This document shows, one piece after another, positions 1,825-63,982 of a DNA stretch of 64,000 nucleotides. The notes beneath the pieces were generated by a model. It had not been told where the DNA came from. It saw nothing but the letters and a program-made list of their open reading frames with translations, and made no database searches. Each line of letters begins with the position of its first letter. Position 1 is the stretch's first letter. The position numbers and the translations under genes were made by a program. The stretch comes from Cyanobium sp. T1B-Tous (GTDB lineage: Bacteria > Cyanobacteriota > Cyanobacteriia > PCC-6307 > Cyanobiaceae): positions 1 through 64,000 of the forward strand of contig NZ_JAGQBE010000001.1 of the NCBI RefSeq assembly GCF_024345475.1, given 5' to 3'.

Positions 1825-2925
1825 ATGCAGCTTCGCCTGCAACGCTTTCAGCTCACCAAGGCCGTGCCCCTGGCCATCAGCCGCGGCACGACGGCGGCGG
1901 TGGAGCACCTGCTGGTGAGCCTTGAGCACGACGGGCTCACGGGCATCGGCGAGACGGGCGGCTTTGACACCGGCCACCGCCACTACGCCACCGATGCCGT
2001 TGCGGCGGAACTGGAGGCAGTTGCCCCCCAGCTGCAGGCCCTGGCACCCCAGCCCCTTCAGGCCCTGGAGCCCCTGCTGGCGGCCCTCAGCCCGCCGGCC
2101 CGCTGTGGCCTCGATCTGGCCCTGCACGACTGGTGGGGCAAGCGGTTGAACCAGCCGCTGCACCGGCTCTGGGGGCTGGATCCGGGGGCCTGTGTCGCCA
2201 CCAGCGTCACCCTCGGCTTAGGCCCCCCCGAGGCTGTCCTGGCGCGGCTCGAGCGCTGGTGGCTGCAGCTGCCCGCCACCCGGATCAAGCTCAAGCTGGG
2301 TAGCCCTGACGGGGTAGCCCACGACCTGGCCCTGCTGGCGGCCGTGGCCGCGGCCCTGGAGCAGCGGCGCCAGAGCACCGGTGGGCCCTGTGAGCTGCAG
2401 GTGGATGCCAATGGCGGCTGGGATCTGGGTACGGCCCGGGCCATGCTCGATCCCCTGGAGCGCGCTGGGGTGGTGCTGCTGGAGCAGCCCCTGCCGCCCC
2501 TGCGGGACCCGGAGCTCGACACGGCTGGCTTCGAGGCCCTGGAGCTCGACTGCCCGATGCCGTTGGTGGCCGACGAGAGCTGCTGGAACCTGGCCGATCT
2601 GGTGCGGCTAGCACCCTATGTGGATGGCATCAACATCAAACTGCTCAAAAGCGGTGGCCTTGCCGAGGCTTGGGTGATGGCCCAGGCGGCCCGGCGGCTG
2701 GGGCTGGGGGTGATGGTGGGCTGCTACTCCGATGCCGCCCTGCTCAACGGCGCCGCTGCCCAGCTGCTGCCCCTGGTGACCTGGCCCGATCTCGACAGCC
2801 ACCTCAACCTGGTGGACGACCCCTTCGCCGGGCTGAACCTGGCGGCTGATCGGCTGGTGCCGCCCCCCGGCCCCGGCCTGGGCATTGATCTGCACACCTG
2901 CTTGGCAGGCGATCGAGCATGTTGA
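1825..2925 (+). CDS. Enolase-superfamily dipeptide epimerase / N-acetyl-D-glutamate racemase (DgcA-like)
   Basis: 366 residues from the ATG at 1825; the frame is open further upstream, but that stretch looks non-coding. It has the muconate-lactonizing subgroup machinery: KLK at 155-157, metal ligands D194 (QVDAN), E220 (LLEQP) and D250 (VADES), the second catalytic Lys at K272 (NIKLLK), and a DxD at D322/D324. The DxD is typical of L-Ala-D/L-Glu epimerases, where it binds the substrate amino group. The next gene overlaps by 7 bp and encodes a DUF1611/DgcN family protein, the partner of DgcA in the D-glutamate pathway known from marine proteobacteria. Two roles compete: murein-dipeptide epimerase, or racemase of N-acetyl-D-glutamate. 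The fold is certain; the substrate is not. Confidence 0.85.
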
Positions 2926-3986
2926 GCGCCTCCGCTCCGATCGTGCTGCTGCTGCACGGCGGCCTCGACGACCTCTCCGGCAAGACCGGCCTGGCGATGC
3001 TGCGCTACCGATCCGGGCCGATCGTGGCGGTGATCGATCCGGCCTTCGCTGGCGCCGACCTCAAGGCCACCACCGGCATCGACCGGGCCGTCCCTGTGGT
3101 GCCCGACATGGCGGCGGCCCTGGCCTACGGCCCCGAGGTGGCCGTGGTGGGGCTGGCCCCCTCCGGCGGCCGCTTGCCGGAGGGGATGCGGGCCGATGTG
3201 CGGGCCGCGTTGCAGGCGGGGCTGAGCCTGGCCAGTGGCTTGCACGGCCGGCTGGCTGACGACCCGGAGTTCGCCGCCATTCCGCTCCGGCCCGGCCAGT
3301 GGATCTGGGACCTGCGCCAGGAGCCGGATGGGCTGGAAGTGGCCACCGCCCGGGCGGCCGCCCTGCCCGGCCGGCGGCTGCTGGCGGTGGGCTCCGACAT
3401 GGCCGTGGGCAAGATGAGCGCCTGCCTGGAATTGCAGGCCGAGGCCCAGCGTCGGGGCCTGGATGCCCGCTTTGTGGGCACGGGCCAGGCGGGGATCCTG
3501 ATCGCCGGCACTGGTGTGGCTCTCGATGCGGTGCGGGTGGATTACGCCGCCGGCGCCGTGGAGGCGGCGGTGCTGGCGGCCGCGGCTGGGGCAGGGCCGC
3601 AGACGCTCGTGTTGGTGGAGGGTCAGGGATCGCTTGGCCATCCCGGGTCCACCGCCACCCTGCCCTTGCTGCGCGGCAGCCAACCCACCGATCTGCTGCT
3701 GGTGCACCGGGCCGGCCAGACCCACGTGCGCACCCGGCCGGGGGCGGCGCCGGTGCCGATCGCGCCCCTGCCGGAGCTGATTGGGGCGTTGGAGTCCCTG
3801 GCCGCCCTGGGCCGGCCCGATGGCCTGCGGCCCCGGGTGCGGGCCGTGGCGCTCAACACTGCCCGGCTCTCCACTGCCGCAGCCACCGCCGCCCTGCTGG
3901 CCACAGCTGCGGAGACCGGCCTGCCCTGTGCCGATCCGGTGCGGCAGGGGGCCGCTCCCCTGCTGGATGCCCTGGTGGCCGTTTGA
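2919..3986 (+). CDS. DUF1611 family P-loop protein (DgcN-like, putative D-glutamate N-acetyltransferase)
   Basis: 355 residues. An N-terminal Rossmann-like domain (to about residue 150) is followed by a P-loop domain with GSDMAVGKMS at 158-167 and the conserved GTGQAGILIAG stretch at 187-197, both characteristic of DUF1611. Members called DgcN are reported to acetylate D-glutamate, feeding the DgcA racemase that makes N-acetyl-L-glutamate. The ATG at 2919 lies inside the end of the epimerase gene, implying translational coupling. No RBS stands out beyond the coupled context. Family assignment is strong. The acetyltransferase role is inferred from the pairing and has not been shown for a cyanobacterium in anything visible here. 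Confidence 0.82.
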   Translation: MLSASAPIVLLLHGGLDDLSGKTGLAMLRYRSGPIVAVIDPAFAGADLKATTGIDRAVPVVPDMAAALAYGPEVAVVGLAPSGGRLPEGMRADVRAALQAGLSLASGLHGRLADDPEFAAIPLRPGQWIWDLRQEPDGLEVATARAAALPGRRLLAVGSDMAVGKMSACLELQAEAQRRGLDARFVGTGQAGILIAGTGVALDAVRVDYAAGAVEAAVLAAAAGAGPQTLVLVEGQGSLGHPGSTATLPLLRGSQPTDLLLVHRAGQTHVRTRPGAAPVPIAPLPELIGALESLAALGRPDGLRPRVRAVALNTARLSTAAATAALLATAAETGLPCADPVRQGAAPLLDALVAV

Positions 3987-4433: not shown

Positions 4434-4883
4434 GTGCCTGATGACTCCCCTGGCTTGTCTGGTCACCCGGCGGTTTCCGCCCGCGCTCCCTGGGGTGCTG
4501 GGTTGGTGGTGGTGGCTCTGGCCGCGGCCGGGCTGGCCATCACCAATCCTGGCCCCGCCGACTTCCAGGCCTTTGCGGCCGAGCGTTTGGTGGATGAGAT
4601 CAGTGAGGAACTCTGCAGGGATGGGGGCTTGCCGGTGCTGATGCGCATGGCGGTGACCAACTGCCAGGAGCTGGTGCAAGCCCAGCGGGCCGCCCTGGGC
4701 ACCGTGGTGGCCCACCACACCCGTCGCAGCAACTTCGGTGTGCTGAGCCTTTACACCAGCGAGATCGGCGGCCAGAGCCTGTTGCGCTGGCGGGTGCCGC
4801 GCTTCCGCTCCACGGTGGTTGGGGTGGCGGGTCAGTTTGTGCTGGTGCGTGCCGCCAGCGACCGCCTCCAGGCCGAACAGTGA
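4434..4883 (+). CDS. DUF4359 family protein, single membrane span
   Basis: 149 residues from the GTG at 4434; the frame is open back to ATG 4356, but that start would overlap the divergent small gene. A hydrophobic segment near residues 20-36 (GAGLVVVALAAAGLAITNP) is followed by NPGPADFQAFAAERL, the conserved opening of DUF4359 proteins of cyanobacteria, in which it follows the N-terminal anchor. The remainder has two cysteines (LCRDGG, TNCQEL) and is probably extracytoplasmic. The stop overlaps the GTG start of the amidohydrolase (GTGA), so these genes are translationally coupled. The function of the family is unknown to me. Confidence 0.7.
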   Translation: MPDDSPGLSGHPAVSARAPWGAGLVVVALAAAGLAITNPGPADFQAFAAERLVDEISEELCRDGGLPVLMRMAVTNCQELVQAQRAALGTVVAHHTRRSNFGVLSLYTSEIGGQSLLRWRVPRFRSTVVGVAGQFVLVRAASDRLQAEQ

Positions 4884-6175
4884 CCCGCTTCCTGGACCTG
4901 CGCCTGCCCCGGGGGCTGCTGGATCCGCGCTTGGTGAGCGGTTTTAGCGCCGACGCCGATGGCCTCGTGCCGCTGCGCATCACCGTGGCCGGGGCCTCCA
5001 TCGCCGCGATCGAGCCCTTGGCGCCGCGGGCTCCTGACGCGGTGCAGGCCCTGCCGCTCGCCCTCACCCCTTTGGTGGAGCCCCACGCCCACCTCGACAA
5101 GGCCTTCAGCGGCGACGCCTTCCCGAATCGGGAGGGCACCATGGCGGCAGCCCTGGCGGCCAACCAGCGGGAGTACGCCGAACGCACTGCTGAGCAGGTG
5201 GCGGAGCGGGCTGGGCGGGCCCTGGAGCGGGCCTGGCGCAACGGTGTGCGGGCGATCCGCAGCCATGTCGACAGCGTGGGGCCTGGGGCCCAGCCCAGCT
5301 GGGACGCCCTGCTGCAGGCGCGCCAGCGCTGGAGCGGTCGGGTGGAGTTGCAGCTGGTGGCCCTGGCGCCGATGGCCCATTGGCTCAGTCCGGAAGGGGA
5401 GGCCCTGGCCCGGCGGGTGGCCGCTGCCCAGGGATTGCTGGGCGGCGTGATCGGGCCTCCCTATGGCCAGGGCCGATCCCGCCGCGCCGCCGACCGCGAG
5501 GCCCTGCTGGCCCTGCTCGACCTGGCCGAGCGCCTCGGCTGTGGCGTGGATCTGCATGTGGACGAATCCGACGCCCATCCCGGAGTCGGCGTTGATCTGG
5601 TGGCCCGTGGGGCCCTGGAGCAGCGCCGGGCGGTGCCGATCACCTGCAGCCACGCCAGCAGCATGGCCCTGCTGCCTCCCCGGGCCTGCGACCAGCTGGC
5701 CGAGCGGCTGGCTGCAGCGGACATTGCCGTGGTGGCCCTGCCCACCACCAACTTCTGGCTGCTGGCGCGCGCCGCTGGCCGCACCCCTTGCCGCCGGCCC
5801 CTGGCGCCGATCCGCAGCCTGCAGCGGGCGGGGGTGCGGCTGGCCCTCGGCGGCGACAACGTGCAGGACCCCTGGTATCCGGGCGGCGATTTCGATGCGG
5901 TGGAGCTGTTGCGTTGGTCGGCACCGCTCTGCCAGCTGATGCCCTGGCAGCGCCTCGGCCTGGCTCCGTTCAGCACCGCGGCAGCGGCCGTGCTGGATCT
6001 GGCCTGGGATGGGGTGCTGCGCGTCGGCGGACCGGCCGACCTGGTGCTCCTGGGCGCCGGCACCTGGGGGGAGCTGCTGGCCCGGCCGCCCCAGCGGCGG
6101 GTGCTGCGCGCCGGCCAGTGGCTGCCGCCGCCCGAGGCCGAGCAGCCCTCGGCCCTGCTGCTTCCATGGGGTTGA
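4880..6175 (+). CDS. Cytosine-deaminase-like (CodA-type) amidohydrolase
   Basis: 431 residues, GTG start overlapping the previous stop. All metal and catalytic positions of the CodA group are seen: HxH at H69/H71 (EPHAHLDKA), H226 and E229 (DLHVDES), H258 (CSHASSM) and D326 in GGDNVQDPWYPGG, which closely follows the CodA HDDVFDPWYP pattern. An active metal-dependent deaminase or amidohydrolase is expected in the cytoplasm. The substrate cannot be read from sequence; the group includes cytosine, isocytosine and s-triazine enzymes. The overlap with the downstream FAD oxidoreductase suggests a joint pathway on a nitrogen heterocycle or amide. Function beyond family is inference. Confidence 0.85.
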   Translation: MTRFLDLRLPRGLLDPRLVSGFSADADGLVPLRITVAGASIAAIEPLAPRAPDAVQALPLALTPLVEPHAHLDKAFSGDAFPNREGTMAAALAANQREYAERTAEQVAERAGRALERAWRNGVRAIRSHVDSVGPGAQPSWDALLQARQRWSGRVELQLVALAPMAHWLSPEGEALARRVAAAQGLLGGVIGPPYGQGRSRRAADREALLALLDLAERLGCGVDLHVDESDAHPGVGVDLVARGALEQRRAVPITCSHASSMALLPPRACDQLAERLAAADIAVVALPTTNFWLLARAAGRTPCRRPLAPIRSLQRAGVRLALGGDNVQDPWYPGGDFDAVELLRWSAPLCQLMPWQRLGLAPFSTAAAAVLDLAWDGVLRVGGPADLVLLGAGTWGELLARPPQRRVLRAGQWLPPPEAEQPSALLLPWG

Positions 6176-7584
6176 GCCCCCTGCTCTACCCCGTGGCTGA
6201 TCCCGCACCCGACCGCTGCCCCGAGGCCCGGATCGCCGCCCTGGCGGCGGAGTTGCGGCGGAGCGATCCGGCGCTGCCGCTGCTGGGGGCGGAGTCGCCC
6301 GCGGAGCTGGAGCGCCTCTCCCGCGACTACTACGACTACTCGCCCGTGCTGGTGCCCGTGCTCGAGCACTGCCGGGCCCAGTTGGTGGCGGCGGCCTCCA
6401 GCGTGGAGCAGGTGCGACTGGTGGCCGGAGCCTGCGCCCGCCACGGTGTGCCCCTGACGGTGCGGGGCGCCGGCACGGGCAACTACGGCCAGTGTGTGCC
6501 GCTGCACGGGGGCCTGGTGCTGGATCTGTCCGGTCTCAACCGGCTGCGGCACCTGGACGACGCCACCGGGGTGATCGAGGTGGAGGCGGGCGCCCTGATG
6601 GGGGCGATCGACCATCAGCTGGCACCCCGGGGCCGGGCCCTGCGGCTGGTGCCCAGCACGGCCCGCAGCGCCACCATCGGCGGTTTCATCGCCGGCGGCT
6701 CTGGGGGCATCGGCTCGCTGCGCTGGGGGTTCCTGAGGGATGCCGGCAACCTCTTGGGCCTGGAGGTGGTGACCGTGGAGCCCGAGCCGCGTTTGCTGCG
6801 CCTCGACGCGGCGGCCAGTGCCCCGCTCAACCACGCCTACGGCACCAACGGCATCCTGACGGCCCTGCGCCTGCCCACCACGGAGGCCGGGGCCTGGCAG
6901 GAGCTGGTGGTGGGCTTCGACAGCTGGGCCCAGGCCCTGGCGGCGGCCCAGGCCCTTCCCGCCACGGCCCTGCTGCTGAACGCCCTCAGCCTGATGGAGG
7001 CGCCGGTGGCCCAGCAGCTGCCCTGGCCGGCGAGCTGCCCGAAGCCCGGGGCGGGGGAGCATCGCCTGCTGCTGCTCGCCGCTGCCGACACCCTGGAGGT
7101 GTTGCCGGACTGGCTGGCGGCCCGCGGTGGTGTGTTGTGCTGGCAAGCCCCCCAGGGGCAGAGCCGGGGCCTGCCCCTGCGCGAACTCAGCTGGAACCAC
7201 ACCACCCTGCACTGGCGCGCCCAGCACCGGGGCTGGACCTACCTGCAACTGCTGTTGCCCCAGCCCGAGACGGCCTGTCTGGAGCAGCTGCGGGCCGGCT
7301 GGGGCGACGACCTGCTCTGGCACCTGGAGGCCGTCCGGCAGCAGGGGGCAGCCCGGTTGGCGGCCCTGCCGCTGGTGCGCTGGCGGGGCGAGGAGGCCCT
7401 CCAGCGCCTGATGGCCGACTGCCGGGCAGCGGGAGCGGTGCTGTTCAACCCCCATGTGCTCACCGTTGAAGACGGCGGCCTGGGGGTGGTGGATGCCGAC
7501 CAGGTGGCGGCCAAGGCCGCCTACGACCCGGCCGGCCTGCTCAATCCGGGCAAACTGCGCGGCTGGCTCAGCAGCCCAGGCTGA
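6166..7584 (+). CDS. FAD-binding (PCMH/BBE-type) oxidoreductase
   Basis: 472 residues from ATG 6166, overlapping the amidohydrolase by 10 bp. The N-terminal half holds a PCMH-type FAD domain: TVRGAGTGNYGQ at 98-109, then GLVLDLSGLNR, the VEAGALMG segment and STARSATIGGFIAGGSGGIGS, the usual pyrophosphate-binding and second glycine stretches. The C terminus ends with LLNPGKL, as in glycolate/D-lactate dehydrogenase-like enzymes. I see no His-Cys bicovalent pair. It is probably a soluble flavoprotein oxidising a hydroxy- or amino-acid-like product of the preceding amidohydrolase; that link is inferred from the operon. Its end overlaps the convergent pentapeptide gene by 17 bp. Confidence 0.85.
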   Translation: MGLSPLLYPVADPAPDRCPEARIAALAAELRRSDPALPLLGAESPAELERLSRDYYDYSPVLVPVLEHCRAQLVAAASSVEQVRLVAGACARHGVPLTVRGAGTGNYGQCVPLHGGLVLDLSGLNRLRHLDDATGVIEVEAGALMGAIDHQLAPRGRALRLVPSTARSATIGGFIAGGSGGIGSLRWGFLRDAGNLLGLEVVTVEPEPRLLRLDAAASAPLNHAYGTNGILTALRLPTTEAGAWQELVVGFDSWAQALAAAQALPATALLLNALSLMEAPVAQQLPWPASCPKPGAGEHRLLLLAAADTLEVLPDWLAARGGVLCWQAPQGQSRGLPLRELSWNHTTLHWRAQHRGWTYLQLLLPQPETACLEQLRAGWGDDLLWHLEAVRQQGAARLAALPLVRWRGEEALQRLMADCRAAGAVLFNPHVLTVEDGGLGVVDADQVAAKAAYDPAGLLNPGKLRGWLSSPG

Positions 7585-63028: not shown

Positions 63029-63982
63029 TCAGCTGGGCAGCACCCGCAGCTGGCCCCGGTCCGCGTCGAGTTCGGCCCAGGCCCCCAGGGGGAGGGCCGC
63101 ATTGCCGGCGACGTGGCCGACGGGCAGGCCACTCACCACCGGCACGCCGAGGTCGGCGGTGCGCTCGCGCAGCACCTGCTCGAGGCTGAAGCGATCCAGC
63201 TCCTGGTCGGAGGACGGCCCCTCAGAGGGCCCGTCCTCCGAGGGCGCGTCGTCGCAGTCGCTGAACTGGCCCAGGCCGATGCCCGCGAGTTGCTGCAGGG
63301 CGCCGCTGAGGCGCCAGTGGGTGAGCATCCGCTCGATCCGGTAGGGGGCCTCGCCCACGTCCTCCAGCACCAGGATCGCGCCGCGCAGATCCGGCAGGTG
63401 GGGGGTGCCGAGCAGGTGGGTGGCCACCGTGAGGTTGGCTGCCAGCAGGGGGCCTGCGGCGGTGCCGCCACTCCAGCCCACCCCCTGGAGGTCGGCCAGG
63501 GGTTCGCCGAACAGCAGCCGTCGCAGCCGCTCCTGGCTCCAGGGCGGCTCGGCGGCCAGGGTGGTGAGCAGGGGGCCGTGGATGGCGCCGCCCTGGCCCT
63601 GGGCCAGTTGGGCCCAGAGCAGGGAGGTGACGTCGGAGAAGCCCAGCAGCCAGCGGTGCGGCAGGCCCAGGGGCTCCTCCAACAGGCGGGCGGCCCCCCA
63701 GCCTCCTCGCACGCAGGCGAGCAGCTCCGCCCCCCGCCGCGCCGCCGCTTCCAGGTCGCCGCGCCGTTCTGGATCGCGGCCGGCCAGGTACCCCCAGCGG
63801 CGACCCTGCAGCGGGGCGGGCTCCACCTGCAGCCCCCAGCCCTCAAGCACGGCGATGCCGGCCTGCAGCCGGGCCTGGGCGTCTTCCCCCAGCAGGGCCG
63901 AGCTGGCCGCCACCAGCTGCACCCGATCCCCGGGCCGCAGCGGCTCGGGCAGGCGGATCGAGCGGCCGAGGGGCTGGCTCAT
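63029..63982 (-). CDS. ldcA: LD-carboxypeptidase (MEROPS S66, LdcA/MccF-like)
   Basis: 317 residues. The catalytic triad is visible: Ser116 in LLGFSDVTSL, Glu207 in LVLEDVGE and His290 in PVGHVAGN. It removes the terminal D-alanine from tetrapeptides during murein recycling. Residues about 245-262 form an acidic Ser/Pro/Asp-rich insertion (SEDGPSEGPSS), which corresponds in DNA to a nearly perfect 35-bp palindrome (63207-63241). The ATG at 63982 overlaps the end of an upstream frame by 4 bp, so it is likely a downstream gene of an operon. Confidence 0.93.
   Translation of the reverse strand: MSQPLGRSIRLPEPLRPGDRVQLVAASSALLGEDAQARLQAGIAVLEGWGLQVEPAPLQGRRWGYLAGRDPERRGDLEAAARRGAELLACVRGGWGAARLLEEPLGLPHRWLLGFSDVTSLLWAQLAQGQGGAIHGPLLTTLAAEPPWSQERLRRLLFGEPLADLQGVGWSGGTAAGPLLAANLTVATHLLGTPHLPDLRGAILVLEDVGEAPYRIERMLTHWRLSGALQQLAGIGLGQFSDCDDAPSEDGPSEGPSSDQELDRFSLEQVLRERTADLGVPVVSGLPVGHVAGNAALPLGAWAELDADRGQLRVLPS
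63207..63241. repeat. 35-bp nearly perfect palindrome inside ldcA
   Basis: Left arm TCGGAGGACGGCCCCTC (63207-63223) and right arm GAGGGCCCGTCCTCCGA (63225-63241) match at 16 of 17 positions around a single central base (63224). It is in frame and adds an acidic low-complexity stretch to LdcA. It looks like an inserted repeat element rather than conserved coding sequence. Confidence 0.75.

Follow-up and report, generated by a model that had tools for sequence, protein, structure and literature searches.

A gene pair for the salvage of D-Glu is known from marine proteobacteria and haloarchaea. Its products, according to papers that cite the original work, are a D-glutamate N-acetyltransferase, DgcN, and an N-acetyl-D-Glu racemase, DgcA (PMC10845958, PMC11747546, PMC12363236), which carry the numbers EC 2.3.1.312 and EC 5.1.1.25, respectively (PMC11747546), and which together convert D-Glu to L-Glu (PMC10845958). 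The proteobacterial DgcN-DgcA operons often end with a gene for a D-amino-acid transaminase, which fits a role in D-amino acid catabolism. The accessible papers yielded no biochemical data on cyanobacterial members, nor did a paper on the D297G variant come to light.

Here we describe a gene pair of Cyanobium sp. T1B-Tous that shows both similarities to and differences from the systems described so far: (i) Like DgcN-DgcA, it joins adjacent genes of the same two families, with the same catalytic residues, including the DxD motif of the epimerase and the P-loop lysine of the DUF1611 protein, and the DUF1611 halves of the two systems form sister clades. In contrast, the cyanobacterial gene order is reversed, with the racemase first, identity is about 28–38%, the 20s and 50s loops of the epimerase differ, and the cyanobacterial operons contain neither a transaminase nor a transporter. 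(ii) The epimerase shares its fold, catalytic lysines, metal ligands and DxD with the dipeptide epimerases YcjG (1jpd), YkfB (1jpm) and 3iji of Bacteroides thetaiotaomicron, but it lacks the equivalent of R24 of YcjG and has a DUF1611 neighbour instead of a murein peptidase such as MpaA or NlpC/P60. (iii) Ava_3511 of Anabaena variabilis, whose structure (2obn) has been solved since 2007, is a cyanobacterial orthologue of the DUF1611 protein, falling in the same clade with 52% identity. (iv) Other members of the DUF1611 family also adjoin a racemase, a PLP enzyme resembling ornithine racemase, although in that case the DUF1611 proteins form a separate clade and the racemase has an unrelated fold.

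The gene pair and its products

Both genes lie near the start of the window, that is, the whole stretch of 64,000 nucleotides that was analysed (Table 1). They are intact and their reading frames overlap, and the residues named in the original prediction, from the KxK, metal ligands, second lysine and DxD of the enolase-superfamily epimerase to the Walker-A-like motif of the DUF1611 P-loop protein, are all in the places assigned to them, as are the 7 bases common to both ORFs. The catalytic residues of the epimerase, DxD included, do not vary in its alignment (27–28 relatives), and the same is true of G158, D160, G164 and K165 in the P-loop of the DUF1611 protein (28 relatives).

Table 1. Positions in the window of the two genes and of their main sequence features
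Feature	Position	Strand	Basis
Enolase-superfamily (MLE subgroup) racemase/epimerase, 366 aa, DgcA/L-Ala-D/L-Glu-epimerase-like	1825..2925	+	ATG 1825 to TGA 2925
DUF1611 protein, Rossmann-like + P-loop domain, 355 aa, DgcN-like	2919..3986	+	ATG 2919 to TGA 3986
7-bp overlap ATGTTGA, DUF1611 start codon within the end of the epimerase gene	2919..2925	+	sequence
20s-loop motif SRGTT (S19-T23) of the epimerase	1879..1893	+	alignment columns
50s capping loop of the epimerase, about 3 residues longer than in DgcA/YcjG	1963..1992	+	alignment
KxK (K155, K157), catalytic lysines of the epimerase	2287..2295	+	invariant in alignments
Metal ligands D194 (2404-2406), E220 (2482-2484) and D250 (2572-2574) of the epimerase	2404..2574	+	invariant in alignments
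K272, second catalytic lysine of the epimerase	2638..2640	+	invariant
DxD (D322, D324) of the epimerase	2788..2796	+	alignment
Walker-A-like GSDMAVGKMS, residues 158-167 of the DUF1611 protein	3390..3419	+	alignment

Pfam assigned the N- and C-terminal MR_MLE domains to the epimerase and DUF1611_N and DUF1611_C to its partner, all above their cut-offs. The top NCBIfam models were DgcA for the former (NF042940, 159.6 bits against an equivalog cut-off of 400) and DgcN for the latter (NF041892, 220.4 bits against 480); since these scores fall far below the cut-offs, the two proteins are relatives of DgcA and DgcN and not members as defined by NCBI. The DUF1611 protein carries the motif set of DgcN, with the invariant P-loop, the EGQG/TGQ motifs and both DUF1611 domains. 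Its AlphaFold model (pLDDT 94.2) matched Ava_3511 (TM 0.87–0.91), Thermotoga TM0796 (2g0t, TM 0.81–0.82) and DgcN itself (7xrj, TM 0.79) in the PDB; the next matches were general P-loop proteins at TM 0.21–0.35, and little else was found. The model of the epimerase (pLDDT 95.6) was closest to the L-Ala-D-Glu-bound dipeptide epimerase 3iji/3ijq of B. thetaiotaomicron (TM 0.83–0.84), followed by YkfB, the Enterococcus faecalis enzyme and other epimerases. The proposal of a DgcA/DgcN-like pair is partly supported by the best profile models and by the structural closeness of 7xrj, but not to the level of the equivalog cut-offs, which both proteins miss.

Distribution in the phylum

Absence from other cyanobacteria, which would have refuted the original prediction, was not observed: the pair is not confined to one cyanobacterium and recurs across the phylum. 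Among 146 genomes taken evenly from the phylum, 45 gave a DUF1611 match, as did the control Synechococcus elongatus, and 46 an epimerase match. When only strong matches were counted, both genes were present in 42 of the 146, the DUF1611 partner never occurred without the epimerase, and a single genome, from another class and 9% contaminated (G053), had the epimerase alone; in other words, the partner accompanied 42 of the 43 strong epimerase matches (Fisher p 5e-36, uncorrected for kinship). Both genes were also found in 16 of 16 searched genomes of the same genus as the window, and families f1, f6, f7 and f9 each include genomes that keep both genes and genomes that have neither. The two are neighbours in most genomes, with the epimerase followed by DUF1611, and where they lie apart, as in G011 (a single-contig genome), G033, G045, G060 and G186, both are nevertheless kept. 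This co-retention, unlinked pairs included, argues strongly for a single pathway in which both proteins take part. Adjacency and co-occurrence that recur in this way across the phylum are far beyond chance: the pair is real and conserved, and is kept or lost together.

G188 was considered as another unlinked pair and rejected, its epimerase gene being split by contig ends. G192 (88% complete) has an epimerase gene (L203:4815-5903) in which the SRG motif is lost (RTHQG), and its genome gave no DUF1611 match; drift of the epimerase following loss of its partner is possible.

Gene neighbourhood

In the loci examined, the pair has no further conserved neighbour beyond close kin. They yielded no conserved peptidase, transporter or other murein gene that would speak for the new use of murein peptides raised in the original prediction, and none for D-Glu uptake, deacylation or arginine synthesis, and the neighbours of the unlinked epimerase genes showed no common function. 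Downstream of the pair, and separated from it by a tRNA-His gene on the other strand, lie genes for a cytosine-deaminase-like amidohydrolase (window 4880-6175, + strand; no Pfam match and below the NCBIfam cut-offs) and for a FAD-linked oxidase (6154-7584, + strand), which overlap or abut and travel together in this position in ten loci of the same family as the window.

Three links to neighbouring metabolism were considered and rejected. The gene argD does lie about 5.4 kb from the pair, on the opposite strand, and had been taken to connect it with arginine synthesis; it is near the pair in three loci only, a figure to be read as a minimum for the family, as the loci reach only about 5 kb, and we discount it as a sign of arginine feeding since all three belong to close kin, whose synteny it reflects, and have argD on the opposite strand. 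LdcA is near-universal in the class, whether a genome carries the pair or not, and is therefore uninformative as a link to murein recycling; an LD-carboxypeptidase A (Peptidase_S66) domain is encoded close to the end of the window (63575-63922, − strand). A connection with cyanophycin was discarded because cphA does not track the pair: it is absent from the Cyanobium genome studied here and from the pair-bearing G036, gives only weak matches in G054 and G121, and is found in many genomes that lack the pair.

Phylogeny

All of the 29 cyanobacterial rows in the epimerase tree form a single clade (100/100). With a support of 95/80 it joins the Bacteroides dipeptide epimerases and the DUF1611-paired epimerases of another class of the phylum, presumably Vampirovibrionia-like; the cyanobacterial enzymes thus group with 3iji, although as a long clade of their own. 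They lie outside the separate clade of proteobacterial DgcN-paired enzymes (100/100), which includes all five NCBI-named DgcA proteins, the Agrobacterium structure 4gfi and Escherichia coli YcjG, the latter grouping with three of the NCBI-named DgcA proteins at 100/97. An AU test did not reject a single clade of cyanobacterial and proteobacterial enzymes without Bacteroides (p 0.083), so a single origin of the epimerase-DUF1611 pairing is possible.

The main splits of the DUF1611 tree agree with those of the epimerase tree. Here the cyanobacterial proteins (100/99) and those of the other class group with each other (95/82), and proteobacterial DgcN is the sister of this group (100/97 for the three combined); the epimerase-paired haloarchaeal proteins, Thermotoga and the ornithine-racemase-paired proteins fall outside, in a tree rooted by choice on the last of these, with a long Thermotoga branch and few haloarchaeal rows. 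With haloarchaeal epimerase-paired proteins outside, the cyanobacterial DUF1611 clade is bracketed by proteins that have an epimerase as their partner. In both trees the cyanobacterial pair forms its own clade outside the proteobacterial branch, and it looks like a remote offshoot of the known DgcN-DgcA system.

A proposed route from D- to L-amino acids

By analogy with its relatives, we propose that the pair is a DgcN-DgcA-like, two-step unit for D-to-L amino acid salvage in its D-Glu version, the most likely of the readings considered here and one that we regard as evenly poised between right and wrong. The DUF1611 protein would N-acylate a D-amino acid, most probably using acetyl-CoA and D-Glu to give N-acetyl-D-Glu; the epimerase, with Mg2+ held on D194/E220/D250, would then remove and return the alpha proton through K157 and K272 to give the N-acyl-L form; and the resulting N-acetyl-L-Glu could feed arginine synthesis or undergo deacylation. 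We infer the acylation and racemisation steps from the relatives and, with less confidence, D-Glu as the amino acid, acetyl as the acyl group and peptidoglycan as the source. The D-Glu reading draws support from the co-occurrence of the genes, DgcA and DgcN as top models, the bracketing in the DUF1611 tree, an arginine (R20) shared with DgcA and the transaminase of the proteobacterial operons; it is weakened by scores of less than half the equivalog cut-offs, the missing R24-equivalent, the changed loops, 3iji as the nearest epimerase in both tree and structure search, and the want of a third gene in the loci examined.

The partners of DUF1611 proteins elsewhere bear on the generality of such a scheme. 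A second DUF1611 clade, present in the same genome and genus as the window, adjoins an ornithine-racemase-like PLP enzyme in 16 of 16 examined loci, and the two are likewise adjacent in other cyanobacteria and on a Vibrio plasmid (L103); the best model for the PLP enzyme is the ornithine racemase Orr, which gave 296 bits for one example and 370 for another against a cut-off of 480. At L074 (G190:C1:3296000-3307000) the neighbour of a DUF1611 gene is homologous to 3rit, the L-Arg-D-Lys dipeptide epimerase of Methylococcus, with which it groups at 100/100, and represents a third kind of partner. That DUF1611 proteins accompany racemases of two unrelated folds speaks for a general role, that of handling one enantiomer for the partner racemase. 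A broader conjecture, offered tentatively and in our view unlikely, is that the product of the cyanobacterial protein is an N-acyl-D-amino acid different from N-acetyl-D-Glu and that, at the same time, DUF1611 proteins are general D-amino-acid modifiers that were joined, in different lineages, to enolase-type racemases of differing specificity and to PLP ornithine-racemase-like enzymes.

The Cyanobium genome (G000) has this second DUF1611 cluster in two versions, at G000:C83:2388-4606 (L032) and on G000:C79 (L033:7503-9751), which are 77% identical and have GC contents of 61% and 66%, respectively; close kin carry one each, and, given a contamination of 2.69%, one of the two may be foreign. 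On a Novosphingobium plasmid (L101:1105-6852), genes for a serine hydrolase, a dipeptide epimerase, a peptide transporter, a TonB receptor and a DUF1611 protein are clustered, which suggests that this locus serves peptide use; the sphingomonad loci L162 and L178 also carry an N-acyl-D-amino-acid-deacylase-like gene.

Taken by itself, the idea that the cyanobacterial enzymes run the same two steps on some other D-amino acid, or with some other acyl group, is unlikely, though it would accord with the changed capping loops of the epimerase. The position of R24 in YcjG, a residue which we take to participate in Glu/substrate binding in the E. coli enzyme, is T23 in the window epimerase, T in 25 of the 29 cyanobacterial rows and never R or K, whereas 26 of the 38 rows of the DgcA clade have R or K. 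Together with the longer 50s loop and with the exchange of GCM and DLDG for GCYSDS and DLDSH, changes that are conserved clade-wide, this loss means that the substrate may differ in its side chain or acyl group, and the variety of DUF1611 partners, from the 3rit homologue to the PLP enzymes, points the same way. However, R20 (R21 in YcjG), which is common to DgcA and YcjG and not to YkfB-, E. faecalis- or NSAR-type enzymes, is retained in 27 of the 29 cyanobacterial rows, and 41 alignment columns of the DUF1611 half, those of the P-loop included, are conserved with one residue common to the cyanobacterial and DgcN clades.

Distinctly unlikely, in our judgement, is that the epimerase acts on the murein dipeptide L-Ala-D/L-Glu, with the DUF1611 protein catalysing a step of its own, coupled to the first, on that peptide or on D-Glu. 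E. coli YcjG is a verified L-Ala-D/L-Glu epimerase, and its place within the DgcN-paired clade indicates that DgcA-type enzymes can serve as, or become, dipeptide epimerases. Both the clade and the fold of the cyanobacterial enzyme are nearest the B. thetaiotaomicron L-Ala-D-Glu epimerase, and the Novosphingobium cluster offers a precedent for a DUF1611 gene among those for peptide use. The DxD at 322/324 had been read as a sign of a dipeptide epimerase, a reading that we set aside: the motif is present in all five NCBI-named DgcA proteins as well as in YcjG, YkfB and the cyanobacterial epimerases, being absent from the N-succinyl-Arg/Lys racemase 2p88, and with YcjG inside the DgcN-paired clade it is uninformative on which of the two reactions is run. 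Indeed, the whole residue set of the L-Ala-D/L-Glu epimerases (KxK, the D/E/D ligands, the second Lys and DxD) is found here and is equally that of DgcA. Against a dipeptide epimerase, the near-perfect co-retention of DUF1611, even where unlinked, would be odd for a stand-alone enzyme, LdcA occurs in the class regardless of the pair, and no NlpC/P60, MpaA or dipeptidase gene adjoins the pair in the loci examined.

It is very improbable that the DUF1611 protein is an ATP-dependent ligase forming an N-acyl or peptide bond instead of an acetyl-CoA transferase: its Walker-A-like lysine is invariant and its weak structural matches include P-loop ATP-using ligases (cyclic 2,3-diphosphoglycerate synthetase, MurC, the D-Glu ligase MurD, dethiobiotin synthetase and CTP synthetase), but at TM 0.21–0.35, and with adenylate kinase and SRP GTPases also matched, these reflect the P-loop fold alone, and PMC11747546 describes DgcN-family proteins as acetyltransferases (EC 2.3.1.312).

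Implications

A verified dipeptide epimerase nests among the DgcN-paired racemases, and the names 'dipeptide epimerase' and 'DgcA' are not separable by DxD; the two annotations may be mixed up in databases. The relatives of DgcN-DgcA are a widely held and patchily lost cyanobacterial trait, which extends to Anabaena and, for DUF1611 at least, to S. elongatus, both of them organisms that are easy to mutate. If the cyanobacterial pair runs the same chemistry as DgcN-DgcA, phototrophs would have, beside glutamate racemase, a second and one-way route from D-Glu to L-Glu or to arginine precursors.
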